64,000 bases of DNA, taken from Vibrio japonicus. GTDB lineage: Bacteria > Pseudomonadota > Gammaproteobacteria > Enterobacterales > Vibrionaceae. Positions 221 to 18,306 of this stretch are shown piece after piece. How positions within the stretch are numbered: position 1 is the first letter of the stretch; the number at the start of each line of letters is the position of its first letter. A program made the translations under genes and the position numbers. The stretch covers positions 744,001 through 808,000 of the forward strand of contig NZ_CP102097.1 of assembly GCF_024582835.1 (NCBI RefSeq). The letters run 5' to 3'. The notes beneath the pieces were generated by a model, which ran no database searches, was not told where the DNA came from, and saw only the letters and a program-made list of their open reading frames with translations.

Positions 221-2929
221 ATGTGGATTCCTTCGAAATTAACCCGTCCGGGACGTTTACATAACGCGATTGTTCGCCCGAGAGTTCTTGATTTATTGCA
301 ACAAGCCCCTTGCTATAAGCTGATCCTCTTTCGCTCACCTGCCGGTTATGGCAAAACAACCATGGCTTCTCAGTGGTTGGCAGATAAAATCAATGTCGGT
401 TGGTACAGCATAGATGAGAGTGATAACGACTCCTTTCGATTTATGAACTACCTGCTTCAGGCACTCAACAAAGCGACAAACAACGCATGCCCTAATGCGC
501 AAAAGCTTGCAGAAAAGCGCCAGTTCTCGTCTCTTCACTCCCTTTTTGGCGAAGTGTTTGCGGAACTGTCAGCATTTCACCAAGAGTGTTATTTAGTGTT
601 AGATGACTATCACCTGATCAGTGACGATGAGATTCATGAAGCGATGCGGTTCTTCCTAAAGCATATGCCAGAAAATCTCACGCTTGTCGTCACCAGCCGT
701 TCCGCACCACCACTTGGCACCGCCAATTTACGTGTCCGTGATCTGATGATAGAGATCGGCAATGAAATGCTCGCTTTTGATACCGAAGAAACAACACGAT
801 TTTTCAATCAGCGTGTTGCCGATGGCATTGATGATTCAACCGCAAACAGTCTGAGAAATTACGTTGAGGGGTGGCCTTCTGCACTCCAACTTATTGCCCT
901 TCAAGCTCAGCATCAACACAAGACGTTAGCCCAATCCGCGGAATCGTTTTCTCAATTCAATCATGCCCACTTATGGGATTATTTGGTTGAAGAAGTGTTT
1001 GATCTGCTTGATTCAGAAACGCGTCGATTCCTGTTGCAATGTTCCGTGCTTGATCACTTTAACGACACACTCGTGTCAGCATTAACAGAGCGTGATGACG
1101 CGCTGAGCATGATAGAGTCGCTCAATCGTTTTGGTCTGTTTATCTCCCCATTGGAAGGCGAGCAAAACTGGTATCGCTTCCACAACCTGTTTGCTGAATT
1201 TCTGACTCACGAGCGCTTCGCACGTATCCCACAGCAAGAGAAAGATCTGCACCAAAAGGCGGCGCAGGCGTGGCTAAAACTATCTTCCCCACATCAGGCA
1301 TTGCACCACGCGCAAAAAGCGGACAACAGTCAGTTAACTGCAGACATCATCAGTCAATATGGCTGGAAAATGTTTAACCGCGGCGAACTGCAAACACTAG
1401 AAAAAGCCATTGAGACATTAACGCCAGAGCAACTTTATAGCGACCCTAAACTTTGCATGTTGCAGGCGTGGCTGGCGCAAAGTCAGCACCGCTACAACGA
1501 TGTCGGCGATCTGCTGTCTAAAGCCGATGAGCAAATGAAAGCATTTAACGTCGTATTAAGCAGTCAGGAACAAGGCGAGTTTAACGCACTACGCGCTCAG
1601 GTCGCGATAAACCAGAACGAGCCAGAAAAGGCGCTAGAGCTGGCAGAGTTGTCGCTGAGTCAGCTCAATACCACCGTGTATCACAGTCGTATTGTGGCAA
1701 CCTCGGTCGTGGGTGAAGTGAACCACGTTCTTGGTCACCTGAGCCGCGCACTGCCAATGATGCAGCAGACAGAAAAGCTGGCACGTCAATATCAGGTTTA
1801 TCACCAAGCACTGTGGGCGATGCTACAACAGAGTGAGATTCTGATCGCACAAGGGTACGTTCAGGCCGCGTTTGAAGTACAGGATAATGCATTTAAGTTG
1901 ATTGAAGAGCAGCAATTGCAACAAGTTCCTCTACACGAGTTTTTACTCCGTGTCAGAGCGCAAATCCTGTGGTGTTGGAATCGCTTAGATGAAGCCGAAG
2001 AGTGCGCGTACAAAGGGCTCGACATTTTAGGCAATCATAGTCCGAGTAAGCATTTGCACAGCTATTCAATGCTGGCCCGTATTGCCATTGGTCGCGGTGA
2101 ACTGGACAAAGCGGGCAAATTTATCGAGCAGATCAGCCATTTGCTTAAGCAATCCACTTATCACGTAGACTGGACAGCCAACGCGTCGCTGTCGCTACTC
2201 CTTTTCTGGCAAGCGCGTGGGGATTTAGAATCGATCAAACAGTGGTTAAGCACCACGGTCAAACCCGATCAAGCGTGCAATCACTTTACTCAGTTACAGT
2301 GGCGTAACATCGCTAGGGCGAAAATCAATCTTGGCTTGTATGAAGAAGCCACGCAAACGCTTAACTTCTTGCAAGAGAAAGCGCGTGAAAACCACTTGCT
2401 GACCGACATCAACCGAAACCTCATTGTTGAAACGGTGCTGGCCGTGTCGATGCAAGACGAACACAAAGCGCATCAATGCCTTAAGCACGCTCTAGAGCTA
2501 ACCAATCAAACGGGCATGTTGGGTAACTTTTTGGTCGATGGGGCGAAGATCGGCCCTGCTCTGGAAAAACTCAACCACAAGAATGAACTGGGTGATTTAG
2601 AACGCCATCGCGCTCAACAACTGCTAAAAGAGATCTCCACCACTCAGCGCAGCCGTTCAGTGCACTTTGATGAGGATTTTGTCGAAAAACTGGTTAATCA
2701 TCCGAACATTCCTGAGTTAGTACGCACCAGCCCACTGACTCAGCGTGAATGGCAAGTTTTGGGGCTGATCTACTCCGGCTTTAGTAACGAACAAATCGCT
2801 CAGGAGCTGGATGTGGCGGGCACCACAATCAAAACCCACATTCGTAACCTCTACCAGAAGCTGAATATTGCTAACAGAAAAGAAGCGGTCAAAACCGCCG
2901 AAAATCTGTTGCAGTTAATGGGCTTTTAA
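221..2929 (+). CDS. malT: MalT, ATP- and maltotriose-dependent activator of the maltose regulon
   Basis: This 902-residue protein is a full-length MalT, a STAND-class LuxR-family activator that binds ATP and maltotriose, oligomerises and switches on maltose and maltodextrin genes. It opens with the typical [10 protein letters not shown] sequence. A Walker A motif (SPAGYGKTT) is near residue 40 and a Walker B-like stretch (YLVLDDYH) near 125. The middle is helical repeat sequence expected to sense sugar. The C-terminal 65 residues hold a LuxR-type helix-turn-helix ([20 protein letters not shown]). A terminator follows directly. Identity rests on size, domain order and strongly conserved ends. 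In Vibrio the mal genes often lie nearby, probably just left of this window, but that is not visible. Confidence 0.95.
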
Positions 2930-2945
2930 TTCCAAAAGCAATAAT

Positions 2946-2979
2946 AAAAAAGCGCAGCCAGAACAGCTGCGCTTTTTTT
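2946..2979 (+). terminator. Rho-independent terminator after malT
   Basis: A GC-rich inverted repeat, AGCGCAGC...GCTGCGCT, with a 7-base loop is followed by a run of seven T. It lies 16 bp after the malT stop. Confidence 0.85.
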
Positions 2980-3115
2980 GTGTCACGACACTCTGCGCCC
3001 TTAAATGAGCATATTATTAATTTATCCGAATACTATTCAATAAGATAGGTTATTTATTGCACTCAGTAGAATTGATGCCAAAATAGACGCATATTAAGTA
3101 TAAGGAATATCATTA

Positions 3116-5995
3116 ATGGCTTGGTTTAAGAAAAATGCGCTCACCGCAGTCCTCATCACTGCCCTCTCACCTGTAAGTTTAAGTTACGCAGACATTGGAA
3201 ATACACCTGTGGTAGGGGGCATTTTTAACTCTTCAGAAGTGTTAAAAAACCAAATCACCAATTCACTGAGCTATTCGACCCGTTTCGCTCGCGACATGAC
3301 ACTTTTCACCATTGGTGGAATGACGTTAGAAGCTTATTTACTCACGTTGCCACTGGATTCGAAGACAAAAACCAAGGTGATGGCACAACTGGCAGACCCG
3401 ACTTACGCAATCCCACTGGGCTATTTTCTTTACCAGTTTTATGACCGCTATACAGGCATCAGCGATGAAGACCAGTTCAAAGCGTATTTAAAAACCGTTT
3501 ATGACGATATGGCCTTGAAAGGGTTTGAACACTCACTCTTTTCAATCCAAGACAAAGCGGTAGAAGACGTGAGTAAACACAACAAGGATCAAGCGCATCA
3601 AGAAGGATTAAAAGTCGATGGTGATTTTATTGCTTCCATGGTGACGGTTTATGATGCCCTATTCCAGGTGGGTGAATGGCAGGATATGGATCGTTTGCCG
3701 GATCAGTACACGTACCTGACCAAAAGCGACAATGATCTGGCGCTTGTGAAAAAGATTCAACCGATCGTTGTCGGGATCTTAGCGCAAGTTGCCAACGGCA
3801 TGGATGACGGTGACATGAAGAGTGCCGTATTAGCAATCATTGATGACCACCAGCCTGAGCATGCTGATAAGATCAACAATCGAGCACAAGCAATCACAAT
3901 CAGCTTAATCGACTTTGTACGCCTTAACGTGTTAAAAGCGTATCGCCAATTTGTCTACATCGACGAAAGACAAGATAGATTAAACCGCTGGCTTCAAACC
4001 ACTTTCGATTCAGACCCAGAGCAAGTCATTAAATTTCTTAAGTCTCAGCAAGATCGCCGTTTCGCGGTGCAAATTACCGTTGACGGTTTACAACAAGGAT
4101 TGATGGAAGGCTTAGTTGATCCGGGCAAACCATTCATAAAAACTGCGTATCAAGCTCATCTGGATCACCAGAGAATCACACCACAATTTGAACACGCTCA
4201 ACCAGAACACGTTCAGGACACGCGATTTTTACAGATCCTCTCCGAACAGATTTACAAAGATCCACACTATCTGCCGTTCTTTAAACGACTTTACGCTGAG
4301 CACACAGATTCCATTGCCCGGGTTGGCGTCTCCTCAACACCGACCATCAGTGTGCGTAATCTTCCGATTATAAAGACTGGCGCGAAAGTGTCGGGGGAAC
4401 TCGGCACAGGTATTCCCAACTTCCACTTTGTTGATCGTCACGAAGACAGAGCTTACTACTTCTTTGGCAACGACGCGTTGCAACTTGATCGTCTGATGCA
4501 AAGCAACAAAGTTCAGACGATGTTTGACCGGCTCACCCACCTAAAAACACTCAACTGCAATGCACAGTACGATTGGAATGCGCAGACAAGTTACGATGCA
4601 CTGGTCAATTTAGGGGCCGGAGAAGCGTTACGTGATTTTGGAGAAAAGCGCTGCTTACGCGAGTTAAATGAACGAGCAGAAGTAGAACAGGAACTGACGA
4701 AACAGCGCCAGTCACTCATTAACAACATTGATAGCTACCAAAGCCTACCTGTGTGGGACTTCTACACACGTGTCACACGTAAATGGAAGATTGAGCAAGA
4801 TCTTCAGTCCTATGCCAAGTTAGATGGCAAAGGGATGCCCGACTACACCTTGATTTATAACCCTTGGCCGGATCACTTTGCGCATTTTGTAGGGCCATTC
4901 AGTGATGAAATCATTATGCCAACTGGTGAGCTAAACCGCCTCGATTACTGGATTGGCGAAGTGGAAAAGAGTTTCCAGAATGCAGGTATCTACGAAAATA
5001 CGCTCTTCGGTATGGCGGGCGATCATGGCTTATCACCTGTCTATCATACTCTGAATCCGGAAAAAGCCATTTTTATTCCACTTGAGGCAAAACTCGGCTA
5101 TCCACTGATCATCAGCAAAATATCTTCTGATGAAGGCGAAGGGCCTAAGATTACTAACGCTTTGAATTACCCTAGCAACAAAAATATTGATGTCGTGGTT
5201 GCCTCGACCGCTGGCGGTAACTTCATGTTAGATATGTTTAATTCGAAAAAAGGTTGGGCAACTCAACCAACTTATGAAGAGTTGATCCAGTGGGAACCGC
5301 TCAGCAGCCCCGCGGGGAGCAAAGTCGATATCATCGCAGAAACGCTGAACTATTTGGATGAAAGCCTCGATTACATGGCTGTTCGAAACGCTATTTGTGA
5401 CGAGAAGAATTGTGAGGTTCGCATAATTGCCAACCGAAATGGACAGCGCCAAGACGAAGTGATCCGCAAGCAAGGCGATCGATATTTCTATCAATCACTG
5501 ACTGGCAAGGAAACCCTGTTAGGCGTACAAACTCTCAACCCTTACCTACCCGAGCCTAATAAACAAGAGTTTGAGCAGTTTGGCCAACTCATCGATAAGT
5601 GTTTACACAAACCTGAACAATCTCAGCCAGCAACTTGGTGTAACAGCGCTGAATGGCGCGAGTTAACACGATTTACAGCAAGGCCAGATTCGGTTGTTGA
5701 ACTGGCGCAGCTGTATGCAGAAGATCGAGCAGGCACGATCAACCTGTTCCCAAGAGATGGCATTGGATACAACACCAAAGTTCCAGGGCGTCACGCAGGG
5801 GAGAGCTACTTGGAGAAAGACGCATTCATTGGCTTTTGGGGTAAGCCTATTGGTGATAATGCCGTCCCTCTTAGCATAGAAGCAAACGGATCATTAGCAC
5901 CGACGCTATATGAATACCTAACTGGTCAGCCAGTCAACGCAGGAGAAAATGGCTGGGGTTATCCGTCATTGCTGAACAAACTCGATATTCGGTAA
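3116..5995 (+). CDS. Secreted alkaline-phosphatase-superfamily protein (type I phosphodiesterase/nucleotide pyrophosphatase-like)
   Basis: The protein has 959 residues, with an N-terminal signal peptide (basic MAWFKK, hydrophobic core, likely cleavage after SLSYA), so it should act in the periplasm or outside the cell. The C-terminal half carries metal-site signatures of the AlkP superfamily: a D..H..GP segment (WPDHFAHFVGP, near residue 590) and GDHGLSPV near 638. The first 400 residues are helical and match no family I know. The substrate is unknown; a phospho- or sulfo-diester is plausible. RBS AAGGAA lies 8 bp before the ATG. The gene stands alone between two terminators, so it is probably monocistronic. 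It is much longer than ordinary nucleotide pyrophosphatases because of the extra N-terminal region. Confidence 0.7.
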   Translation: MAWFKKNALTAVLITALSPVSLSYADIGNTPVVGGIFNSSEVLKNQITNSLSYSTRFARDMTLFTIGGMTLEAYLLTLPLDSKTKTKVMAQLADPTYAIPLGYFLYQFYDRYTGISDEDQFKAYLKTVYDDMALKGFEHSLFSIQDKAVEDVSKHNKDQAHQEGLKVDGDFIASMVTVYDALFQVGEWQDMDRLPDQYTYLTKSDNDLALVKKIQPIVVGILAQVANGMDDGDMKSAVLAIIDDHQPEHADKINNRAQAITISLIDFVRLNVLKAYRQFVYIDERQDRLNRWLQTTFDSDPEQVIKFLKSQQDRRFAVQITVDGLQQGLMEGLVDPGKPFIKTAYQAHLDHQRITPQFEHAQPEHVQDTRFLQILSEQIYKDPHYLPFFKRLYAEHTDSIARVGVSSTPTISVRNLPIIKTGAKVSGELGTGIPNFHFVDRHEDRAYYFFGNDALQLDRLMQSNKVQTMFDRLTHLKTLNCNAQYDWNAQTSYDALVNLGAGEALRDFGEKRCLRELNERAEVEQELTKQRQSLINNIDSYQSLPVWDFYTRVTRKWKIEQDLQSYAKLDGKGMPDYTLIYNPWPDHFAHFVGPFSDEIIMPTGELNRLDYWIGEVEKSFQNAGIYENTLFGMAGDHGLSPVYHTLNPEKAIFIPLEAKLGYPLIISKISSDEGEGPKITNALNYPSNKNIDVVVASTAGGNFMLDMFNSKKGWATQPTYEELIQWEPLSSPAGSKVDIIAETLNYLDESLDYMAVRNAICDEKNCEVRIIANRNGQRQDEVIRKQGDRYFYQSLTGKETLLGVQTLNPYLPEPNKQEFEQFGQLIDKCLHKPEQSQPATWCNSAEWRELTRFTARPDSVVELAQLYAEDRAGTINLFPRDGIGYNTKVPGRHAGESYLEKDAFIGFWGKPIGDNAVPLSIEANGSLAPTLYEYLTGQPVNAGENGWGYPSLLNKLDIR

Positions 5996-6028
5996 ATTGG
6001 CTAAGGAAAAGCAATCAGCTAAAAACAC

Positions 6029-6054
6029 AAAAAGCGCCAATTGGCGCTTTTTTT
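6029..6054. terminator. Bidirectional terminator
   Basis: The palindrome AGCGCCAATTGGCGCT is flanked by A5 on the left and T7 on the right, so it can end transcription from the convergent genes on both sides. Confidence 0.8.
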
Positions 6055-6072
6055 ACATCAGTTATCGTCTGA

Positions 6073-6429
6073 TTAGAACTTTTTCGGAGCAAAACCCGTC
6101 ATGACTTCTACCCGAAGTTCTTTACCCAGTTTTGTCATAGGGTGTACAACAACCAACCCACGTACCGATTTCTTTAGCTTACCAAGATCCGCTTGTTCTT
6201 CTTTGGTAATTTCACGCGAGAACGGCATATCCATTAAGCTCTTACGCTCTTTGTTCATGTCGTACTTTTGCTTACCTTTTAGAGAATTGATTTTCTTCTC
6301 TAATTTGTCTGCGTCATCGGTAAATCGTGTTACAAGTTCCTGGTCGCCACGTCCCTTCGCAGCATCCAGCTTACGTTTTGTGGTATCTAGGCGATTATGT
6401 AGTTGCTGAAGTTCTTGCTTAAGGCTCAT
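6073..6429 (-). CDS. yibL: YibL-family ribosome-associated protein
   Basis: I place the start at the ATG giving MSLKQELQQLHNRLD (118 residues). The open frame extends 15 codons further upstream, but that part is not typical. The protein begins with a charged coiled coil (residues 1-60, LHNRLDTTKRKLDAAK) and ends with a basic segment (VRGLVVVHPMTKLGKELR). This matches the YibL family, which in E. coli co-purifies with ribosomes; its molecular role is not established. It stands alone, convergent with the preceding gene. Confidence 0.75.
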   Translation of the reverse strand: MSLKQELQQLHNRLDTTKRKLDAAKGRGDQELVTRFTDDADKLEKKINSLKGKQKYDMNKERKSLMDMPFSREITKEEQADLGKLKKSVRGLVVVHPMTKLGKELRVEVMTGFAPKKF

Positions 6430-6600
6430 GGATACAGTCTCTAGTGAATTCTGAAAAGGCGGCGAGTTTAGCATAAGCCACCCTCACACCCTAATGTTAA
6501 TCTCTGATATCGATTGTAGCATTACGTCAGTTAGACGCGCATACTCAAACTAAGTGGATTCATATTAAATTTATCGCAGCAAGCTGGAAATAAACGGAGA

Positions 6601-6993
6601 ATGAAAGTGCAAAAATTAACCATATTCTATGATGGTACCTGCCCTATTTGCGTAAGAGAAATGAACGCACTGAAGCAACGCGATCAAGGGCATCGACTAA
6701 CGCTGGTGGACACCCATAGCGAGGAATTTGCACGCTATCCGCAAATTGATGCGCAGAAAGCATCAACCGTTCTTCACGCGCTGGATGAACGCAATCGACT
6801 TTTACTCGGATTAGATGTCACTTACCAAGCGTGGAAGTTAGTAGGCAAAGGATGGTTATACGCCCCACTACGCTGGCCAGGCATCAAACCCTTGGCAGAT
6901 TGGTCTTACATAAAGTTCGCCAACAACCGCTATACGATTTCTAAATGGCTTACAGGAAAAAGTAAGTGCAACAACAACCGTTGCTCTCGATAA
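6601..6993 (+). CDS. DCC-family (DUF393) thiol-disulfide oxidoreductase-like protein
   Basis: About 130 residues with the DCC signature near the N terminus: FYDGTCPIC, where a CxxC pair follows an aspartate, reminiscent of a thioredoxin-type active site. The rest, including the WLYAPLRWPGIKPLAD helix, is typical of DUF393. No substrate is known for the family. The annotated ATG lies only about one base after the GGAG motif; the GTG at 6607 (MQKLTIFYDG) has a better 7-base spacing and is the likelier start. The gene ends in a basic, cysteine-containing tail (SKCNNNRCSR), which is unusual. The region after it (6994-7178) shows no obvious terminator. Confidence 0.75.
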   Translation: MKVQKLTIFYDGTCPICVREMNALKQRDQGHRLTLVDTHSEEFARYPQIDAQKASTVLHALDERNRLLLGLDVTYQAWKLVGKGWLYAPLRWPGIKPLADWSYIKFANNRYTISKWLTGKSKCNNNRCSR

Positions 6994-7178
6994 CTCTCAG
7001 TAATCTCAATGACATAGGACTAATGTCTAATATCTCAATTGCATATATCTCTCCTGATTCACAGTCCCAATCCAAAATTCTGGTTAATCTATAAATCAAC
7101 CTAATGAGCTTGCGAATACATAAGCGTCACCGCTGACGTCGCACGTCAAATAGGGATAAATCAAGACAGGAAGTTGGT

Positions 7179-8840
7179 ATGAATCTCTCTATAAAAAGTC
7201 GCCTTTATATTTTGGCGTTAATCCCCCTGCTTGTGATTACAGTTGGCCTGCTAAGTGTTACCTACGTAAAAACCGCCCAACTTAACCACGCACAAGTTGA
7301 ACTGACACAACATCACATGATGGACACCAAAAAATCCGAGCTAAAACAGTTCGTCCAAATGGCTAAGTCATCTATCGCCCCTTTACTTGAACAAGGTGCC
7401 GATTTAGAAACGGCATTACCGATACTAAGAAGCCTAAAGTATGGTGATTCGGGATATATATTTGGTTATGACTCAAGTGGCGTTCGGATTGTAGCCGGAG
7501 ACAGTACGCAAGGCGTCGGTGACAACTTTTGGGATTTGCAGGATAAAAAAGGCAATTTTTTAATTCAAGAATTGATTCGTAATGCTAAGACGGGAGACTA
7601 CACAACGTACTACTTTCCTAGACTTGGTGACACCAAAACCCTACCGAAACTGAGTTACTCTATGTACATTCCAGAATGGGATTTAACCATAGGTACGGGC
7701 TTTTACACTGACGATGTCGATGCCAAGATCCAAGAAATGGAGCAAGCAACGAATTCAGCGTTGCAAGATACTCTATCCGCAATTTTTATCCTTTGTATCA
7801 TCATTTCGACGATCGTGGCGGTATTTGCCGTCATCGTAAACCGAAGCATTATGAATCCGTTAGAGAAGTTTGATGCTTCCATAACTGCATTTGCCACTGG
7901 CGAAGCTGACCTCACCGCGAGAATGGAGAGCTTTAATGCCCCTGAGTTTGCAAAGCTGAGCCACAACTTTAATGCGTTTGTATCAAACCTACAATCCATA
8001 ATTCAAAGTGTAAGTAACGTCAGTCATCAGGTCGTTAGAGAAACAAACAACATGTCTGAAAGAGCCTCACAAGTAGATGAACTCGCCGCTGGTCAGCGCA
8101 AAGAAACAGAGCAAGTGGCGACAGCAATGACAGAACTCACTACAACCGCTAACGAAATATCAAATAATGCGAATCAGGCAGCTCAATCAGCTAAAGAAGT
8201 AGACGAAAGCGCCATAGAAGCCAGAGACATAGTGCAGACAACAGCTCAATCCGTCGAAGCACTGGCCTCAGAAGTCTCTCAAGCGAGCAATGTCATTTCG
8301 GCTCTGGAAAGCAACGTACAAAATATTGCGGTGTCACTTGGTGTGATTCAAGATATTGCTGAGCAAACCAACTTATTGGCGCTAAACGCCGCGATAGAGG
8401 CTGCACGAGCAGGTGAACAAGGTCGAGGCTTTGCCGTGGTCGCTGACGAAGTACGCAAACTTGCCAGTCGAACGCAAGACAGTACAGGCGAGATACATCA
8501 GACGATAGAACAACTAAAAAGTGCGTCAGATGCGGCTGTAAAAGCGATGAGTTCAAGTCAAAGCCTGAGCCACGAAACCGTTCGTGAAGCCAATGCCGCT
8601 GCACAGGCATTAGTGAAGATTCAGGACTCGATCGGCACAATCATGGATATGACTGCCTTAATCGCAACGGCGACCGAAGAGCAAAGCATTGTCGGACAAG
8701 ATATATCGCAGCGCGTTGTCGTTATCTCCGACCAAAGCTATCAATCTGCAGATCTGGCAAACGACAACAAAAACGGCAGCCAAGAACTTAACCGCAGAGC
8801 CACTGAATTGTACGACTTGGTAGACCGATTTACTGTGTAA
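7179..8840 (+). CDS. Methyl-accepting chemotaxis protein with single Cache sensor
   Basis: A 553-residue transmembrane chemoreceptor. TM1 spans about residues 9-30 and TM2 about 193-218. Between them is a periplasmic single-Cache domain with the typical [13 protein letters not shown] and [14 protein letters not shown] segments. A HAMP domain follows TM2 and a full MCP signalling domain ends the protein, with the hairpin tip ([20 protein letters not shown]) that contacts CheA and CheW. There is no C-terminal pentapeptide for CheR/CheB tethering. The ligand cannot be read from sequence; Cache domains of this type often bind small carboxylates or amines. RBS AGGAAG sits upstream, and a bidirectional terminator follows. 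Confidence 0.92.
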
Positions 8841-8906: not shown

Positions 8907-9527
8907 TTAGCTGACTAATAACCAGATACCCACGCCCATCATCAATGTCCCCGCAATGCGATTCATTAAGCGAACATTCTGAGAATGACCAAGTACTCTT
9001 TTTAAGCCCTTTCCGCCGGTCGCATAGAGTGTCATGCAAACAAATTCAAAGAACAAAATAATGCTGACTAACACAACCAACTGAGGCGCTAATTCTGCTT
9101 TCTGATCAATAAATGGCGGCAGTAGCGAGATCATAAACGCCCACCCTTTTGGGTTAGCAATGGCGGTCACAAATCCTTGAACCACTAAGTTCCAATCGCT
9201 TTGCGGAGCCGCTGCGCTTTCATCCATATTGATGGCGAGCTTTCCGCGAGAGAGCCACATTTGCACGCCTAAGTAAAATAGGTAACTACCACCTAATAGT
9301 TTAAGCGCGACAAACAACCAAGGATAATTGAGCATGACCGCTGCAATGCCGAGTACTGCGGCTACCGCAACCAAACCTACGCCGACCAGTTCACCTGCCA
9401 TCATCCACAGAGTGCGTTTGTACCCCACACTCATCCCAAGCGTAAGAGCAAGTGTCATACACATCCCGGGGGTGATAGACACAAAGAAAAAGGTTGGGAT
9501 AAACATCCCTAGTAATGCGGTATTCAT
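8907..9527 (-). CDS. LysE/RhtB-family amino-acid exporter
   Basis: This 206-residue inner-membrane protein has about six hydrophobic segments and the LysE/RhtB N-terminal signature (FFVSITPGMCMTLALTLGMSVG) plus the conserved NPKGWAF motif near residue 125. Members export amino acids or related metabolites such as homoserine, threonine or lysine, driven by the proton gradient. The substrate cannot be assigned here. It reads leftward from a start at 9527 and shares a terminator region with the convergent chemoreceptor gene. No regulator is adjacent. Confidence 0.88.
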   Translation of the reverse strand: MNTALLGMFIPTFFFVSITPGMCMTLALTLGMSVGYKRTLWMMAGELVGVGLVAVAAVLGIAAVMLNYPWLFVALKLLGGSYLFYLGVQMWLSRGKLAINMDESAAAPQSDWNLVVQGFVTAIANPKGWAFMISLLPPFIDQKAELAPQLVVLVSIILFFEFVCMTLYATGGKGLKRVLGHSQNVRLMNRIAGTLMMGVGIWLLVS

Positions 9528-9718
9528 TGGCTCACAGAGTTTCGAGTTATTGATTGTAAAATCAGATTATCACGGATTGTTGGAATCGGGTGATGAAAAA
9601 TTAGGAGAGATAACATTTACGTGCTTTATGCGGTAAAACAGATAAATGGGAACGTGGCGGACGCAGATGAATTTAGATGAGTAAGGGCGCTGTGCGCCCT
9701 CAATATTGACTATATACG

Positions 9719-9964
9719 CTACTTGGCAGCGTGGAGAATCCTCCCGTGAAGCCCATCTTTCATCGCAGCACGATCATGCTTCATTTGCAGCATCGCTGCG
9801 TCACTCACCGGGGAATCCCTCAGTTCGAGTTTGCGTATTTCTTGATCCAGTAAATCATACTGTTTCATGTCGCTCATAAACGCGGCATCAGACCTAGAAA
9901 GCGATTTGATCGTATCTTGATGTTCAGGAAATTCACTTAACAGAGAATGATCTTCACCTAACAT
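9719..9964 (-). CDS. YdcH-family (DUF465) small protein
   Basis: An 81-residue, soluble, highly charged protein predicted to be two helices forming a coiled-coil hairpin. Segments such as FMSDMKQYDLLDQEIRKLE and the C-terminal HDRAAMKDGLHGRIL match the DUF465/YdcH family in size and pattern. The function of the family is not established. A GC hairpin (GGGCGCTGTGCGCCC, about 9686-9700) just beyond its stop may act as terminator. Confidence 0.8.
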   Translation of the reverse strand: MLGEDHSLLSEFPEHQDTIKSLSRSDAAFMSDMKQYDLLDQEIRKLELRDSPVSDAAMLQMKHDRAAMKDGLHGRILHAAK

Positions 9965-10237
9965 AGTAACCCCTTCATTAGCTCATTGTGGACCATTAAA
10001 AAGACGGTTCTTTGAACAATTTTAGCACTTTCAAAAGAATTCACATGTGAACTCAACTTCGGCTCGCTTTACTCACCAATAAAACGAACGCTATTTCCGC
10101 TTCTATACGCGCCAGTAAACGGTAACGCCAAGTTTAATAAAAGCCATTTTGATGAATGAGAACAACGGGTATCGGTGTAGAAACCATCGCCATATTAAGG
10201 TAGCATTGCCGACCTTTTTTCATACGTAGGAGGTTTT

Positions 10238-11590
10238 ATGTTTATCGGATTCGACTATGGTACAGCTAACTGTTCCGTGGCAATGATGGAGCAAGGAGAG
10301 CCAAGACTTTTAACGCTCGAAAATGACGGTATCTATATTCCTTCGACACTGGCGGCTCCTACACGTGAATCCGTTGCTGAATACCTGTTTAAGTTTCGTG
10401 ATATCAAACCGCTCGACAGCGTTGGTGAACAAGTTCTTCGCCGAGCAATTGCTTTAAACAGAGAAGAATGTATTGATCTAGAAGCATCGGATCTCGCATT
10501 TGGGCACTCAGCCTTAGATCTTTATCTTCAAGATCCTAGCGAAACCTATTACGTAAAATCACCGAAGTCTTTCCTTGGTGCATCTGGTTTACGAGATGTT
10601 CAGGTCAGTTTCTTTGAAGATCTGGTTTGCGCCATGATGGACAACATCAAACGAAATGCGGAAACCGATGCGCAAGCGTGCATCACCGATACAGTGATTG
10701 GTCGCCCTGTTAACTTTCATGGCCGAGACAGTGAAGCTGCAAACCAGCAAGCAGAAAACATATTACTCAAAGCCGCTAAACGGGCAGGCTTTAAAAACAT
10801 TGAGTTCCAATTTGAACCTGTTGCTGCCGGACTAGAATATGAAGCGACACTGACCGAGAACAAAACCGTTCTTGTCGTCGATATCGGTGGTGGTACTACA
10901 GACTGCTCATTAATCGAGATGGGTCCACGCTGGCGAGGCCAATCGAACAGAGCACAAAGCTTACTCGCACATAGCGGTCAACGCGTGGGTGGTAACGATC
11001 TCGACATTGCATTGGCATTTAAACAGCTCATGACGCCATTTGGTCTTGGTAGTAAAACCACAGCAAACATAGCGATGCCGCATATCCAATTTTGGAATCC
11101 GATTGCGATTAACAGCGTAGACGCTCAAGCTGACTTCTATTCTCGCTCTAACTTGGCAACGCTAAATCAACTGAAAAAAGAAGCACAAGAGCCCGAAAAG
11201 CTGGCAAGATTATTAGAAGTATTTCATGAGACACTGGGCTATAGCATCGTACGACATGCTGAAGAAGCTAAAATAGCGCTGTCTGAACACCCGCAATATA
11301 GCGTTGTCATGAACCTGCTCTCAGAGCAATTAGAAGTTGATATTCACTTCGAAGACATGATCAACGCGATAGAGTCTCCAAAACAAAAAATGGCTGAGTT
11401 AGTCAAAGAAGCGGTTATGCAAGGTCGCGTTCAACCCGACGCGATATTTATGACAGGAGGCTCGGCACGCTCTCCTATCTTACGTAGCGCTGTTCAGGAA
11501 ACACTACCCAATATTCCCGTCGTGAGTGGTAATTACTTCGGTTCGGTGACCGCAGGCTTAGCGCGCTGGGCAGAGGTTTGTTTTAAATAG
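10238..11590 (+). CDS. yegD: YegD, Hsp70-like ATPase
   Basis: A 450-residue actin-fold ATPase of the Hsp70 superfamily lacking the peptide-binding domain of DnaK. The N terminus MFIGFDYGTANCSVA is the phosphate-1 loop, VLVVDIGGGTTDCSLIE near residue 215 is phosphate-2, and IFMTGGSARSP near 405 is the adenosine motif. The length matches E. coli YegD, whose physiological role is not clear. A strong RBS (AGGAGG) precedes the ATG. The gene stands alone and ends at a good terminator. Confidence 0.9.
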   Translation: MFIGFDYGTANCSVAMMEQGEPRLLTLENDGIYIPSTLAAPTRESVAEYLFKFRDIKPLDSVGEQVLRRAIALNREECIDLEASDLAFGHSALDLYLQDPSETYYVKSPKSFLGASGLRDVQVSFFEDLVCAMMDNIKRNAETDAQACITDTVIGRPVNFHGRDSEAANQQAENILLKAAKRAGFKNIEFQFEPVAAGLEYEATLTENKTVLVVDIGGGTTDCSLIEMGPRWRGQSNRAQSLLAHSGQRVGGNDLDIALAFKQLMTPFGLGSKTTANIAMPHIQFWNPIAINSVDAQADFYSRSNLATLNQLKKEAQEPEKLARLLEVFHETLGYSIVRHAEEAKIALSEHPQYSVVMNLLSEQLEVDIHFEDMINAIESPKQKMAELVKEAVMQGRVQPDAIFMTGGSARSPILRSAVQETLPNIPVVSGNYFGSVTAGLARWAEVCFK

Positions 11591-11614: not shown

Positions 11615-11647
11615 AAAAAAGCCAGTCGCGTATACGACTGGCTTTTT
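11615..11647 (+). terminator. Rho-independent terminator after yegD
   Basis: The inverted repeat GCCAGTCG...CGACTGGC has A6 before it and T5 after it, 25 bp beyond the yegD stop. Confidence 0.8.
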
Positions 11648-11712
11648 GTTATGAGATGGTTTTGCCCAAAACATCTTAACTTCTTTTGGTTCTGAGCCAG
11701 AAAAACAGCGAT

Positions 11713-11741
11713 AAAAAAGGGCAACTGAATGCCCTTTATTT
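11713..11741 (-). terminator. Terminator of the leftward envelope cassette
   Basis: On the minus strand AAAGGGCA and TGCCCTTT form a hairpin followed by T6, directly after the last gene of the 11.7-16.1 kb operon. Confidence 0.7.
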
Positions 11742-11746
11742 AGAAG

Positions 11747-12583
11747 TTAACGGATATCGCTAAGAAGCATCGGTTTACCAAAACCTAATAGCCTCGCATT
11801 ACTTTGCTCAAAGTAGCTCTTCCAGAACGATTCTAGGTGGTTCATTTTTTGAGCTGAGACGTACTGATTGCTACTTGGAATAACACCGGTGCCAACAACG
11901 TAAACATCAGCTGCATTGAAGTTTGCGAACATTTGTGCAGAAGACACTTTTTGAATTTCACTTTGTGCATCAATGACACGGGTGCGGTTATTTTTGTAGA
12001 AAGAGGTAATATCCGAGTTTTCAAGCATGTCACTAATTAGCAGCACAACCTTACGTTTAGCGTCAGAGTTACCTAATACTTGGTTGCTGATATCACTCAA
12101 AGTCCCGATCAGTTCTGTGTTGGTTGGTTTGTCCTGTGGCTCAAATGCGCCTTTAAGACCAATACCTACTTTGCTGATCATAAACTTGTGCTGCTTATCC
12201 AAGCATTTATCAAACGCTTTAAGTGCAGACTTTTTGATGTAGTTTCGGTTATCTTGGCTAAGTGGTGCATCCAGTTGGCCTTTAAACACAACTTTTGTGT
12301 AGCTATCTTGAGCAAAAGAGGAAAACTCAACAAGCTGGACTTTGTCACCTGGTTGGATAAAACGTGTCAGACTTTTATAAAGCTCTGATTTAATATCCTG
12401 AGCCAGAGAGTGTGCCATCGTCTTATCAATCAGGATAACCAGTTCTCTCTCGCTAGGTAACTGATAATACTCAGACGAGATATCCGCACTACAGCTTGGT
12501 ACGTCATTACGAACAACGGCTGCATTAGCAAAGTGGCTGCTTAACGCCACTGCAGTTAGAAAAATCTTTGTTACTAATTTCAT
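11747..12583 (-). CDS. Secreted protein with von Willebrand A-like fold, unknown function
   Basis: 278 residues with a clear signal peptide (MKLVTKIFLTAVALSSHFANA). The mature part resembles a VWA domain: a first beta strand LVILIDKT, where the DxSxS metal site is degenerate (DKTMAHS), and a later hydrophobic strand VVLLISDMLENSD carrying an aspartate. Several cysteines (CSADISS, CLDKQ) may form disulfides. It should be periplasmic. It is the last gene of a four-gene leftward operon, 11 bp after the multi-spanning membrane protein. VWA domains usually mediate protein-protein contact, so a role as binding partner of that membrane protein or of the OmpA lipoprotein is a reasonable inference. 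I know no named homologue. Confidence 0.6.
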   Translation of the reverse strand: MKLVTKIFLTAVALSSHFANAAVVRNDVPSCSADISSEYYQLPSERELVILIDKTMAHSLAQDIKSELYKSLTRFIQPGDKVQLVEFSSFAQDSYTKVVFKGQLDAPLSQDNRNYIKKSALKAFDKCLDKQHKFMISKVGIGLKGAFEPQDKPTNTELIGTLSDISNQVLGNSDAKRKVVLLISDMLENSDITSFYKNNRTRVIDAQSEIQKVSSAQMFANFNAADVYVVGTGVIPSSNQYVSAQKMNHLESFWKSYFEQSNARLLGFGKPMLLSDIR

Positions 12584-12594
12584 AATTTATCTTC

Positions 12595-14151
12595 TCAAGA
12601 CATCGCTTGTTGCTGAAGGCGAGCTAAACGCTCCTGAGGGGTTTCAGCTTTTGGCTCGTTATTGATTGCTTTAAGTGCAGCTACGATTTGCTCATCTGTT
12701 AAGCCATCCAGTTCGTTCGCTTTCACTTTCTCGATGATATCTGCGTCAGTTAATCCCGTTTCAATGGCGACAACGCTAGGCTGAGCCTCTTGCACAACTG
12801 GTGATTCCGCAGCGGCTGTTACTGTTTTCGCAACCGGCGCTTGAGCTTGAATCACTTCTGGTGTCTGCTGGTTTTGCAGTTCACGCAACTTATAGTAATT
12901 GATAAAGGTACGAGCAGAAGGCTTGTTCGCAGCGTTCAAAATATTCTTATCACCTGCTAGCTTACGCGCGCTGATTGCAAGTTTGCTCTGCAAGTGGGAG
13001 AGTACGCTCTGTGCAACACGTTCAACACCAGCGCGTTTTGCAGCATGGTAATCAAGATACGCATTTAAGTTTGAGAACTTATGCGTCGCTTTGTATGCCT
13101 TTGATGACTCTTTTCCAGAGAATGTCGTCTTGAACCCTAGGAAAATACTGATCGCTTGCATCGCTACAAAAATGACAGCCAGGATAATGAATGTCATCCA
13201 ACCGCCACGTTTATGCGCCTGGATCGCATCACGAAACGCAGCATCGTCTGCTTCGTCGTTATAGCTAGTAAGCTCTGCTGGTGGCGCATCCGCAAATGGG
13301 TCTTCAATTGAGAATGTTGAACCCATTCCGTCTTGCGTACGACCACTGATTTCTTCAATGGCTAACTTCTCTAACACCTGACCACGTACATACGTCGCAC
13401 CAATACCAACGATAGCAATCACAACGACCGTCAAAATGCTCATTGTCCATGATTTACTGAAGTCAGCATTCGTTTTCGCAAGTCGGTTAGCAATCTGTTT
13501 CCAGCTTGGTTGATTGTCATCTAACTCGTTCGTTTTCGTTGTTAGACCAACTAACTGATCCGTTTCAACATACGCTTCTGTAACAGTTTCGTCGTGACCC
13601 CAACGTAAACGCACCTTGCCGATCTGTTGGTTACGATATATCTCACCACCCATGGCGTGAGTTAAGAAAACCAAAATCATACTTAGTACAATAGCAATCG
13701 CGATAGCGCCCTGAACCTGAATCGCTTCACTTCCATCTTGAATAGTGAATCCTGCAAGAATGTAAGCAAAACCCGCAGCTTCGATCACAACCAAAATTGA
13801 TAAGCCAAGCCAGATGTACCAGCTCATTGGTTTGATGCCTGTATCACCGACTTTATTCAGGTAACGAGCAGATTGTTCGTAGTGATATTCATCTGCGTTA
13901 CAATCATCAAAATAAGGAAGGAAGCTATTACAAACTTCACGTTCCGAATTAAACCAATTTTGGTCATCCATACCAAAGCGTTTACTCAAACGCGCGTTTT
14001 TACCAATAAGTGGGAAACGGTAGTAATACGCCTTTAAATGTAAATTAATGGCAGCCCTGTTATTAAAATAGATAATGACCGCTAAAACTGCGGATACAAT
14101 ACCTGTAACCAGCAGTCTATTAAGTAGAAGCCAACTTGTTAATTCATTCAT
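12595..14151 (-). CDS. Multi-spanning inner-membrane protein of the OmpA/VWA cassette, unknown function
   Basis: 518 residues. Hydrophobic segments lie at about 8-29, 111-135, 149-166, 235-255 and 319-340, giving about five membrane helices. A soluble part of about 80 residues separates TM1 and TM2, and acidic stretches (SIEDPFADAP) lie before the last helix. The last 180 residues are soluble: a basic helical part, then an A/P/Q/V-rich linker and a helical end (LTDADIIEKVKANELDGLTD). It is not MotA or ExbB by pattern. It sits 2 bp after the OmpA-family gene and 11 bp before the VWA-like gene, so the three are probably co-transcribed and may form one envelope-spanning complex; that is inference. 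Confidence 0.6.
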   Translation of the reverse strand: MNELTSWLLLNRLLVTGIVSAVLAVIIYFNNRAAINLHLKAYYYRFPLIGKNARLSKRFGMDDQNWFNSEREVCNSFLPYFDDCNADEYHYEQSARYLNKVGDTGIKPMSWYIWLGLSILVVIEAAGFAYILAGFTIQDGSEAIQVQGAIAIAIVLSMILVFLTHAMGGEIYRNQQIGKVRLRWGHDETVTEAYVETDQLVGLTTKTNELDDNQPSWKQIANRLAKTNADFSKSWTMSILTVVVIAIVGIGATYVRGQVLEKLAIEEISGRTQDGMGSTFSIEDPFADAPPAELTSYNDEADDAAFRDAIQAHKRGGWMTFIILAVIFVAMQAISIFLGFKTTFSGKESSKAYKATHKFSNLNAYLDYHAAKRAGVERVAQSVLSHLQSKLAISARKLAGDKNILNAANKPSARTFINYYKLRELQNQQTPEVIQAQAPVAKTVTAAAESPVVQEAQPSVVAIETGLTDADIIEKVKANELDGLTDEQIVAALKAINNEPKAETPQERLARLQQQAMS

Positions 14152-14153
14152 GA

Positions 14154-15695
14154 TTATGCTTTTCCTGGTTTGTAATCAGCCATCATCAAACCCTTAGGGC
14201 CTTGATAATAGATTTTTCCTGCGAACGCGTTGAACGTTCCATTTTTATGTTTTTTATCTACCGCAATATCAATACATTTAATTGGGTAGTTTTTATCCTT
14301 AATAAACGCACGATAAATAACCCCTTCAGATCCATTGTAGATATTTACATCTACCATTTTCGCGGTCTTCATTGGTTTTGCTTGTCTATTTGAGGAATAA
14401 TTTTTATAAACGGATATGGTTGGGTTTTCAGTAATATCTAAAGTACTTCGATCAACGGCTAAAGGCGCCATGCCGATACCATGTTCATTAACCTTACCCC
14501 ACCAAGCCGTTCGGTTCATGCCTGGTAAATAATCGGTCGTGCTTAGCGTTTTCTCGCTGACTTTATAAAGAGATGTGGTGACGCTTGGTTCATCATAAAC
14601 ACACGATGTTTCTTCCAATGCGCCCGCTACTGCCTGACCAATAATGGAAAAGCTATTGGTTTCTTTCGCACCAATATAAGCAAATAAGTTGTCCTCATTG
14701 CCTTGGTATATTGCACCACCGAAATCGATAAACTGTCTGCTGTTTACGCTTCTTACGTTATCTTTGGCAATCACGTCGCTCACAGCTTTTGCGCTAACAG
14801 AAGACTTACCTTGACCGCTTGCGACCTGTTCTCTAACCGTGCTGCTTTTTTTCGCAATATTGTCTGTTGTGCGGATTTTTGCGTAGCTAGGTTCAGATGC
14901 CTTGTACTTCACATAATTGGTCACGTACTCTGGTTTGTTCGATAGCGTGACAACCTCAATACGTCGGTTATCAGCACGCCCCGCAGTGGTTGTATTCGAC
15001 GCAATCGGCTGTGATTCGCCAGCACCATAGATATAGATGTTCTCTTGAGGGATGCCATTTCGAATTAACTCTTCCGCGACACTCCTTGCACGTTTAAGTG
15101 AGACATCAGCATTAACCTTAGCAGACCCCGTATTATCGGTGTGACCGACAATCAATACCGCGCTGTCACTTGTCTTAACCGTTTCGGCGTAGTTGCTAAA
15201 AAAGCGTTTATGTTTTTGGCTTGAAATAGACGTTTGACCTGTGCGAAAAATATCGCCTTTAACCGTCGCGGATAAGCCGACTATTTCTGACTTTCCAACT
15301 ACATGTTCGATTTTTTCTTTTTGACCCGAATTCTCTGCCGCAATAATGGCTTTTGACTGGACCGCCACCATGCTCTCGACACCATCGCCTTCGGCCGCAC
15401 CAATACGCTCAAACTCAACATCTACACCCTGCTTTTGAGCAGCTTCAGCGAGTTTTGCTTCTCGCTGTGCCCAGTAGTAACCTAGGGAACATCCAACCAA
15501 TGCACCAACACCCGCTCCTATCCATGCTCCCTCATTTCCACCAATCACTTTACCTGCCAAGCCACCGACAATCAGGCCACCGGCACAACCGATCATTGTT
15601 CCGGTACTAATACCACCATAATCACCTGTCGTTGAACAACTTGTTGCAGCGAGAGAAAAGCTAACTGCAATAGCGATTTTTTTATAGTTCTGCAT
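14154..15695 (-). CDS. OmpA-family lipoprotein with glycine-zipper segment
   Basis: 513 residues. The N terminus is a lipoprotein signal (SLAATSC, lipobox cysteine at about residue 20). A glycine-zipper hairpin follows (about 35-75, GLIVGGLAGKVIGG and GAGVGALVGCSLG), which could insert in a membrane. The middle (about 160-265) is a peptidoglycan-binding OmpA_C domain with LIVGHTDNTGS and RADNRRIEVVTL. The remaining 240 residues match nothing I know. An outer-membrane lipoprotein tied to peptidoglycan is the simplest reading. Its start overlaps the preceding gene by 14 bp and the membrane-protein gene follows 2 bp after its stop, indicating tight translational coupling. Confidence 0.75.
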   Translation of the reverse strand: MQNYKKIAIAVSFSLAATSCSTTGDYGGISTGTMIGCAGGLIVGGLAGKVIGGNEGAWIGAGVGALVGCSLGYYWAQREAKLAEAAQKQGVDVEFERIGAAEGDGVESMVAVQSKAIIAAENSGQKEKIEHVVGKSEIVGLSATVKGDIFRTGQTSISSQKHKRFFSNYAETVKTSDSAVLIVGHTDNTGSAKVNADVSLKRARSVAEELIRNGIPQENIYIYGAGESQPIASNTTTAGRADNRRIEVVTLSNKPEYVTNYVKYKASEPSYAKIRTTDNIAKKSSTVREQVASGQGKSSVSAKAVSDVIAKDNVRSVNSRQFIDFGGAIYQGNEDNLFAYIGAKETNSFSIIGQAVAGALEETSCVYDEPSVTTSLYKVSEKTLSTTDYLPGMNRTAWWGKVNEHGIGMAPLAVDRSTLDITENPTISVYKNYSSNRQAKPMKTAKMVDVNIYNGSEGVIYRAFIKDKNYPIKCIDIAVDKKHKNGTFNAFAGKIYYQGPKGLMMADYKPGKA

Positions 15696-16101
15696 TTTTT
15701 CCTACCATGCACGTATATTTAATATTATTTTTTCTGTCATTTGCCCAATTTAAAAAATAACCATCTTGTATTTGCTCTATTTTTAATTCTTGGACAAAAC
15801 CACTTTGTTTTTCTTTCAGCTGATAAACCCAGGTATTATTTTGGTCAGACGCACCAATAATAGAAAAACGATACCGAATTGACTCCGGCATACCGAGCTC
15901 TCTCAGCGGTTCATTAAAAGAGGTTTCTAACGTGATTTCTTTAAGTTCAACAGTGAAATTAAACGTTGTAACCTCTTGGCCGGAACGTATTTCACCAAGA
16001 AAAGAGTGACAAGGAGGCAGAGAATAGTTTGGAAAAAAATAAAACCCTGCCGCAACAGTTACCATTGCAACTGAAGGTATGAAGATAAATTTGTATCGCA
16101 T
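15682..16101 (-). CDS. Small membrane-anchored or secreted protein, first gene of the OmpA/VWA cassette
   Basis: 139 residues. One N-terminal hydrophobic segment (about 8-25, FIPSVAMVTVAAGFYFF) acts as anchor or uncleaved signal, followed by a predominantly beta domain with two cysteines (CHSFLGE and YTCMVGK) that could pair in the periplasm. I do not recognise a family. The gene looks more AT-rich than its neighbours. Its last 14 bp overlap the OmpA-family gene, so it heads the operon, and the promoter should lie in the 0.5 kb upstream. Confidence 0.6.
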   Translation of the reverse strand: MRYKFIFIPSVAMVTVAAGFYFFPNYSLPPCHSFLGEIRSGQEVTTFNFTVELKEITLETSFNEPLRELGMPESIRYRFSIIGASDQNNTWVYQLKEKQSGFVQELKIEQIQDGYFLNWANDRKNNIKYTCMVGKNAEL

Positions 16102-16623: not shown

Positions 16624-18306
16624 TTAAACATCTTCAGCGTCAAAAGCTTCATCTTCAAGCATTGAACGGCACTCAATCTCGTACTGATTGAATGAAAAAA
16701 TGCTGGCTCCATGAACACGCTTGGTTGTTATTTTCTCATCACCAAATTGCACCGTTACATGAGTAAAGACTTTGCTGGTGGCTTCAATTTTTGCCTCAGC
16801 AAGCGCATCGTTAAGATCCGCCTGATTCACATCTCTCGCCAGTTTCGCCGCTTCAAGCTGGGTACTTGCTTCTAACTTTTGCGATTCTAACTTTTCTTCT
16901 TGCTCAGGCTCACGTTCAGATTTAGGCACTTTCTTCAGCTCTAATTCCTGACGTACGAGCGACATCGTCTCTTCCTGCGCAAGAGTATAGTTTTCCTTTA
17001 ATTTAACCTGACGTTCACGATGCTTGTGAAAATGAGCGAACGCCTCAACGTGAGTTGCTGTATCACCTTCAACGCCCAATTCGACACAGGTCACTGACCC
17101 ACCCACTTTTGCGTGCCCGCCACTTAGTGTTCCTTTCTTCCCAGTGGAGTTAGAAACAACAAGATCTTTTCCACAACGCACTTCGCTGTTCATACAGTGA
17201 ACTTGAAGCTGAATATTTTCCGCCGCTTGCAGTTCGCAAAACTGAGCATACTTGGCATGGATTGAACCACCGGATTTTACAATGCAGCTTTTCGGCTCTC
17301 CTTCAGACACATTGTGGCCAATGATTCCTTTTGCAACGTTAATATCGCCTTTTGCTTGCACATTCGCGGATTCAATAAACCCACCTACCGATATGTTTCC
17401 GGTTGCTCGAACAATCATATCGGATTCGATATTCCCCAGAACAACCACATCACCTTTAAACTTAACGTGCCCCGTTGCAACACCTACATTGGGTAAACAG
17501 ATCGCCTCAGTGACATCAACGCTACGATCATGAATAACAGGCATACCCGACGCCGTCGCAATCAGTAAGTTCGGATTGTCTTGAGATATTTTCGAGCCTT
17601 TTCCTTCCTTGAGAATACAATCTCTGCCTGCCTTGGCTGGAATAACACGTCCTAAAACGGTTGAGCCGGGTTCCCCAGCTGTTGCGGGAATTCTTTCCAT
17701 TAATGGTTCGTCTACCGCAACACTGATCATTTCGCCCAAGTTGAGCATGTCTATCTTGCCACTCGTTTTTTTCTCTTTCGGGGCAAGAATCTGTTTGGTC
17801 GGATCCTTTACCAAGGGTTTCAACAGAGTATCCTTTCCATTGATAGGATGTTTGCCTCGAGCCACCGGCTGCGAGAATGTTTCGCCAGGTTTTAGGGTAT
17901 GGCTCATAACTAGGACTTTTTTTAGTGCTAGTTTGTTAATTCCCTTCACAACATGAGAATCGGCAAGTGCACTAACAATCTGGTGACCAACAAGCGGGTT
18001 GCCTTTATAAGCGCCAGTGATAACCATGGTGGCTAGCATGTCGTTTTCAGAAATAACGATTTCAAGTTCTACGTCTTTCACTTCGGCGATTTGGATTCCA
18101 TGGTAGGCTTCGCTTTTACGAGCCTTTGCCAGTTTCAAAAATCTCTCTGCCTCATCTGACGATACGAAATAGTCTTCTGCGCCTATACTGCTCAACGCAA
18201 CACCGAGTCCTTGTGTGTCTAGGTTACTTTCTATTTCTGTTTGAGGATCTAACTTCGCAATCACTCTGCGTTTATCCTCGGATAATTCCAGCAACGTTTC
18301 CCACAT
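16624..18306 (-). CDS. DUF342 (FapA-like) polymer-forming domain protein
   Basis: 560 residues. The N-terminal third matches the DUF342 N-terminal part, and the middle (about 230-420) is a right-handed beta-helix with repeated G-D-V/I turns (VVVLGNIESDMIVRATGNIS, VQAKGDINVAKGIIG). The C-terminal third has a long, very acidic/basic coiled coil (QELELKKVPKSEREPEQEEK) and a short beta end. No signal peptide is seen, so it is cytoplasmic. Members are common in Vibrio and related genera; their role is poorly defined, with links to cell-surface signalling or chemotaxis in some. It is transcribed alone, with parS2 sites lying upstream. Confidence 0.8.
   Translation of the reverse strand: MWETLLELSEDKRRVIAKLDPQTEIESNLDTQGLGVALSSIGAEDYFVSSDEAERFLKLAKARKSEAYHGIQIAEVKDVELEIVISENDMLATMVITGAYKGNPLVGHQIVSALADSHVVKGINKLALKKVLVMSHTLKPGETFSQPVARGKHPINGKDTLLKPLVKDPTKQILAPKEKKTSGKIDMLNLGEMISVAVDEPLMERIPATAGEPGSTVLGRVIPAKAGRDCILKEGKGSKISQDNPNLLIATASGMPVIHDRSVDVTEAICLPNVGVATGHVKFKGDVVVLGNIESDMIVRATGNISVGGFIESANVQAKGDINVAKGIIGHNVSEGEPKSCIVKSGGSIHAKYAQFCELQAAENIQLQVHCMNSEVRCGKDLVVSNSTGKKGTLSGGHAKVGGSVTCVELGVEGDTATHVEAFAHFHKHRERQVKLKENYTLAQEETMSLVRQELELKKVPKSEREPEQEEKLESQKLEASTQLEAAKLARDVNQADLNDALAEAKIEATSKVFTHVTVQFGDEKITTKRVHGASIFSFNQYEIECRSMLEDEAFDAEDV

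Follow-up and report, generated by a model that had tools for sequence, protein, structure and literature searches.

The 64,000-nucleotide stretch of Vibrio japonicus DNA analysed here, referred to as the window, lies on contig 2 of a genome of 3 contigs and 4.2 Mb. It contains four adjacent genes, A to D, whose products a preliminary description read as the parts of a trans-envelope assembly. The locus raises the question of whether these genes form a unit that is inherited and works together, and of which role such a unit could play in the cell envelope.

Organization of the locus

All cassette genes lie on the minus strand: A at 15682..16101 (139 aa, with an N-terminal hydrophobic stretch and two cysteines), B at 14154..15695 (513 aa), C at 12595..14151 (518 aa) and D at 11747..12583 (278 aa). 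Their spacing is as tight as first described, with an overlap of 14 bp between A and B, a gap of 2 bp between B and C, and one of 11 bp between C and D. The single terminator claimed for the group can be seen in the sequence as a hairpin with a T-rich tail directly 3' of D (about 11712-11737, minus strand), likely the terminator of the operon; the pattern scan, however, omitted this hairpin, and the 6 terminator-like sites that it lists do not exceed chance (4.3 expected). A second hairpin, at about 11616-11648, faces a convergent Hsp70-type gene. As to promoters, the pattern scan found 6 versus 10.6 expected, which is not above chance, and in an alignment of the regions upstream of A the window copy lacked a clear shared promoter.

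In the window, the cassette is flanked by the Hsp70-type gene (10238-11590) and a FapA-type gene (16624-18306). These two genes are approximately 97 kb apart in G012 and more than 1 Mb apart in G017, which indicates that gene order around the cassette varies between species. Since they are far apart in the relatives examined, the window's flanks cannot be used for an empty-site comparison.

Conservation of the B-C-D unit

We compared 84 loci (L001-L070, L078-L084, L184-L188, L190 and L191, L001 being the window), in which three places are represented twice (L002/L078, L003/L082 and L004/L081). Profiles detected the order B-C-D in 74 of them, C-D-B in 4, C-D in 5 and B-C in 1; the B-C locus and three of the five C-D loci end at a contig end, and L068 and L084 contain C and D without B. 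Co-occurrence in other genomes, on which the preliminary description had staked its proposal, held for B, C and D, all three of which are found in 78/84 loci. Moreover, in draws at the class and phylum levels, every convincing relative (12/12) carried B and D together with C. The proposed four-gene unit was not borne out: among the loci compared, several of which are too short to show it, A is present only in the window, L011 and L078-L080, that is, besides the window, in three relatives of the same genus and in Photobacterium galatheae. A is presumably an optional extra part, and the conserved unit is composed of B, C and D. In one of these 12 relatives (L186, a fuller reading of L172; G539), an ORF that gives the impression of a transposase lies between C and D (5928-6773), the cassette being otherwise complete.

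The pairwise identities of B, C and D correlate with one another (r 0.87-0.90) over 52 loci, obtained from 63 usable ones by dropping near-identical loci as well as L055 and L069. None of 1000 permutations gave values as high, a control that leaves shared ancestry in, so that co-inheritance alone would also be compatible with the correlation. As far as protein identities go, the three genes have diverged in parallel across loci. Overall, B, C and D are linked across distant Proteobacteria and Campylobacterota.

Distribution and mobility

Gene C is sparsely distributed. Counting the window's genome each time, it was detected in 4/61 relatives, 8/227 genomes of the genus, 6/370 genomes of the class (one of them spurious) and 9/397 genomes of the phylum; the match dropped at class level, in G486, scored 15-16 bits in an ORF without neighbouring B or D. 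Among plasmid records, 19/72,556 matched; several of these replicons are very large, and one looks like a chromosome at 4.9 Mb. Sixty loci obtained from one genome scan with a single peptide pattern belong to Gamma-, Beta- and Alphaproteobacteria and Campylobacterota, together with one short metagenome contig labelled Emticicia. No match was found in phage records and viral contigs, nor in E. coli genomes, for which the query was limited to DNA from the copy in Pantoea.

Within the genus, copies of C with 68% and with 27-34% identity sit in different species. In G017, a block of A to E lies between frdD and efp, and in G005, G006, G011 and G018 the same flanks are only 150-204 bp apart, an empty site; this comparison covered eight loci, the other four of which, including the window's own genome, aligned on the efp side only. 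By gene order, G152 and G161 carry the block in two different gaps of the same neighbourhood, and a base-level alignment of one of these sites matched on one side only. In addition, a tyrosine integrase gene lies 0.7 kb away from one copy, and another copy is located between TraG/D-type and methylase-helicase genes; a transposase is absent from the conserved gene set. Altogether, B-C-D occurs as cargo at different sites and is horizontally mobile.

Predicted features of the three proteins

Pfam and NCBIfam assign names to B alone among the cassette proteins. It had been described as an OmpA lipoprotein with a glycine zipper. The OmpA domain (residues 150-244; 14964..15248, minus strand) matches PF00691 with an E-value of 4.3e-19 and clears the curated cut-off with 69.1 bits vs 27.2. 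The zipper (residues 32-77; 15465..15602, minus strand) was found with Pfam models that score near their cut-offs (PF13488, 25.7 bits vs 25; PF13441, 26.4 vs 28.9). The lipoprotein signal, like the signal peptide of D, was judged by sequence pattern: residues 17-20 read ATSC, a lipobox-like motif that would place the lipidated cysteine at Cys20, and the strict lipobox pattern fits 41/66 B proteins, none of which (0/41) has an Asp at +2. The Asp of the GHTD motif and the second Arg of the NRR motif are kept in 65/66 rows of the B family, the remaining row being gapped, and the first Arg of NRR in 64/66, with one row gapped; we take these Asp and Arg positions to be the peptidoglycan pocket of OmpA domains. 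B carries, at the level of sequence, the conserved residues of a peptidoglycan-binding OmpA domain, and binding itself is predicted.

The C-terminal region of B (residues 255-513; 14157..14933, minus strand) is a conserved domain without a family match, in which two cysteines are invariant across 19 sequences. Pfam gave only chance-level matches to the same number of these regions, the profile search against solved structures returned nothing significant, and a profile search with the region retrieved three proteins, two with an OmpA domain and one fragment 99% identical to the window's B.

Regarding C, its predicted five helices, already proposed in the preliminary description, are agreed on by the structure model (pLDDT 88.7, pTM 0.72) and the charge pattern over 68 sequences, with mean net charges of +1.8, +1.8 and +2.8 for the inner segments and of -1.1 and -5.1 for the outer loops. 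This fits a topology with the N terminus outside, five helices and a long tail inside, as expected for an inner-membrane hub with a cytoplasmic extension. The acidic loop between helices 4 and 5 (residues 256-317; 13201..13386, minus strand; mean net charge -5.1) is predicted to form a periplasmic helical hairpin, its helices spanning residues 236-274 and 292-342 in the model. In one protein search, in which the 8000 best candidates were scored, 88 protein clusters passed as homologues of C; the tail of 12/88 contains CxxC...CxxC, and for all twelve of these a zinc-ribbon match is among the precomputed Pfam annotations. A fold search with the C model returned only middling helical-bundle rows, and a profile search against solved structures nothing significant. 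C forms a protein family of its own.

The preliminary guess that D is VWA-like agrees with its predicted fold and with structure searches, whose matches include the pilus adhesins Mfa5 and streptococcal pilus proteins. According to the model, D is a VWA-fold protein that Pfam misses: in the window's D no Pfam VWA model scored above its cut-off, VWA_CoxE matches 3/63 members (best E 0.0023), and a profile search against solved structures found nothing significant, while some sources label its relatives 'VWFA' or 'VWA domain-containing protein'. D-type clusters above threshold numbered 868 among 8000 scored candidates. The modelled fold does not say what D binds, and adhesion is a candidate role.

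The canonical MIDAS motif of VWA domains is DxSxS. D lacks it, having instead D53-x-T55 invariant in 57 sequences, with the first Ser replaced by Thr. The same sequences share invariant S184, D185, E188 and S190 within an SDMLENS motif (residues 184-190; 12014..12034, minus strand), in which D185 presumably stands where VWA folds have the final Asp of their metal site; judging by conservation, S88 and D185 may complete a variant metal site. C31 and C127 are likewise invariant in the 57 sequences and could form a disulphide. In the D model only an N-terminal helix (3-15) precedes the VWA fold. An AxA pattern in 55/69 family members makes the predicted signal cleavage likely; alternatively, this helix could be an uncleaved anchor.

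Accessory and neighbouring genes

Three relatives of the same genus carry a further gene, E, after D (L078:11514-13250, L079:11547-13283 and L080:11504-13243). Its product, of about 578 aa, has zinc-ribbon motifs as well as hydrophobic stretches; a split relative is found in Shewanella (L069, 10596-12385), and a search of the window's genome, which had no positive control of its own, gave no match. Recurrent partners of the cassette were otherwise limited to local synteny plus a small number of genes for zinc-ribbon, LemA, cold-shock-type or DUF4870/Yip1-type proteins; the first three kinds of neighbour come from few loci each, which also supplied the search probes. The zinc-ribbon pattern occurred in 7/526 genes near the cassette (<3 kb) vs 3/464 far from it, an unconvincing difference. 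Small proteins with membrane stretches and a cold-shock-like look adjoin the cassette in three distant hosts (L017:10417-11163, L191:5949-6404 and L084:8051-8869). Those of L017 and L191 match each other (phmmer), and that of L084 gives the impression of being cold-shock-like.

A model for the B-C-D system

The cassette is genuine, conserved and mobile, and the sources searched contain no description of it. Sequence and structure models would place one of its proteins at the outer membrane and peptidoglycan, another beyond the cytoplasm and the third in the inner membrane, in support of the peptidoglycan-type anchor, membrane hub and exported VWA-fold protein named at the outset. We give an even chance to the proposal that the three genes B-C-D move horizontally as one system and that their products assemble a device across the envelope. 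In the most economical model, the device is a bridge that reports changes at the outer membrane or peptidoglycan to the cytoplasm. B would sit in the outer membrane and grip the peptidoglycan; D would be exported and perhaps braced by a disulphide linking its two invariant cysteines; it would connect its natural partners, B's orphan domain and the acidic hairpin that C would expose in the periplasm. Displacement of the outer membrane or peptidoglycan would be relayed to C, and the output would pass through its cytoplasmic tail, via the zinc ribbon that some copies have or via separate zinc-ribbon or LemA neighbours. On the whole the device would probably protect, be it from damage to the envelope or from an invading element. 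The best reading of the role is one of sensing or protection across the envelope, which we find about evenly balanced between right and wrong.

A compact, envelope-spanning mobile operon of this kind lends itself to direct tests of a role in defence, stress or competition. Its membrane core, C, is an unnamed protein family. Searches with C, D and the C-terminal domain of B matched no family in Pfam, nor did the window's proteins C and D in NCBIfam, yet the set has spread through Proteobacteria and Campylobacterota.

Defence genes and alternative roles

Anti-phage or anti-plasmid immunity, following the logic of Zorya (peptidoglycan-anchored sensing across the envelope) with an unrelated membrane core, is one candidate. 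It is favoured by the patchy, mobile distribution, by the lack of matches in phage records and viral contigs and, among the matches listed, by defence genes approximately 8 kb or less from the cassette in six loci: GajA (L053), JetA (L043), an Avs2-like protein (L081), a type I restriction subunit together with PDC-S14 (L011), Cas1 (L084) and a PtuA-like ATPase (L005). These came from a PADLOC scan around up to 57 loci, L068 having been left out of the 58 listed because the gene caller called no cassette gene there. The scan covered 296/601 flanking proteins of at least 120 aa, drawn at random as 148 near and 148 far, all <900 aa; the control consisted of 263 size-filtered proteins from 20 random regions of seven genomes, not matched one to one, and the tables list the best 25 of 75 and the best 25 of 86 families. 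In our judgement, the matches listed include convincing defence genes for seven proteins in six loci, vs none in the control. The enrichment is not robust, however: among the matches listed, counts by locus (6/57 vs 0/20) give a Fisher p of 0.33, and counts by protein (7/296 vs 0 or 1/263) a p of 0.016 or 0.07, so that the statistics of the defence association are weak. Also against immunity, PADLOC has no match for A, C or D, and A-D include no nuclease or other evident effector. On balance, we regard an immune function as possible, but would sooner expect it to prove wrong.

Several matches did not enter these counts. IetA (L040), which looks to us like FtsH, MzaA (L057, matched at its C terminus only) and mad3 were dropped as generic on the cassette side, as were mad, RtcR, dCTPase, IetA, BrxH, DpdF, PsyrT, SngC, AriA and DrmC on the control side, where a ZorF-like DUF2894 match (E 1.2e-80) was counted as doubtful. 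Cyclase and PDC-S18 matches near the cassette, whose locus of origin is untraced, were left uncounted. In L084 (G217; 387-7651 and 8983-11321), C and D stand without B approximately 8 kb from cas1, and by sequence impression the ORFs between look CRISPR-related.

A second candidate, which we hold to be as tentative as immunity, is a role unrelated to phages in envelope stabilisation or stress sensing, in which the outer membrane and peptidoglycan would be held to the inner membrane and damage reported. An OmpA-type anchor, a VWA protein and a membrane hub suit this role, and some loci adjoin LemA, zinc-ribbon or DUF4870/Yip1-type membrane proteins; against it, each of these neighbour families occurs in few loci, and presence in a few per cent of species suits a housekeeping function poorly. 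A bolder version of the protective bridge, to which we assign a rather low probability, is that B-C-D founds a distinct class of systems for trans-envelope immunity or for surveillance of the envelope, working without an ion motor, in which a VWA arm tethered to the outer membrane or peptidoglycan would report a mechanical or chemical breach and the zinc-ribbon side of the new five-helix hub would start the response.

A secretion or surface-adhesion apparatus, with D as its exported sticky part, draws on the use of VWA folds in bacterial pilus adhesins and on the pilus proteins among the structure matches of D, but the conserved set includes no outer-membrane channel, ATPase, sortase or chaperone gene, and D is single-domain, its relatives measuring 259-290 aa among the matches listed (120/868, in a search that admits a limited length range only); we consider this improbable. 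A force transducer of the TolQ/ExbB/MotA kind, powered by ions and fitted with a VWA output arm, would have a parallel in published TM-tethered VWA proteins encoded beside tolQ-like genes (PMC12204202), but is very hard to reconcile with C, for which hhalign gave probabilities of 0.2% against TolQ, 0.2% against MotA and 0.3% against long ExbB, vs 95.4% for TolQ against MotA as the positive control. Lastly, it is scarcely credible that B, C and D are chance neighbours without joint function, as all three stay together in 78/84 loci over several classes and the second gene order keeps the linkage.

Comparison with known systems

Searches of families, structures and literature matched no described system, as the preliminary description had stated. 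Full-text searches found no description of the cassette within their coverage, outside which lie most subscription papers and preprints; the passages considered from one paper, PMC12419801, have no bearing on it.

What the cassette has in common with Tol-Pal and the YiaD/Pal-type lipoproteins is a lipoprotein-type protein that carries an OmpA domain; its glycine zipper is shared with YiaD. B differs from YiaD and Pal in its extra conserved C-terminal domain, and the conserved set differs from Tol-Pal in having no TolQ-, TolR-, TolA- or TolB-type gene. Membership of B in the YiaD family (NF053611) was rejected, its 131.2 bits being below the equivalog cut-off of 175.

Zorya (ZorA-ZorB) resembles the cassette in combining an inner-membrane protein with a peptidoglycan-binding OmpA-type protein, in its accessory carriage and in a membrane part with a long cytoplasmic extension. 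Experiments on Zorya described in PMC11890865 establish that an OmpA-type protein can act in anti-phage defence by binding peptidoglycan, so the principle has precedent. Membership in Zorya nevertheless fails for want of a MotA-like ZorA and of the N-terminal motor helix of ZorB: C is not MotA-like (hhalign 0.2% against MotA and TolQ) and has no PADLOC match, and B begins with a predicted lipoprotein-type signal without Asp rather than a motor helix. Matches of B to the ZorB models of PADLOC are confined to its OmpA stretch (best 1.3e-12, residues 173-254), no protein among A-D matches its ZorC, ZorD or ZorE models, and the cassette adds a VWA-fold protein.

The clusters of VWA force transducers in PMC12204202 also encode a VWA fold beside a polytopic membrane protein. 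Their VWA proteins are TM-tethered and encoded beside tolQ-like genes, whereas D looks exported, with a tether possible; C is not TolQ-like, and a predicted OmpA lipoprotein belongs to the cassette set. These clusters are the nearest parallel in the literature found; their membrane partner sets them apart from B-C-D, as the tether probably does too.
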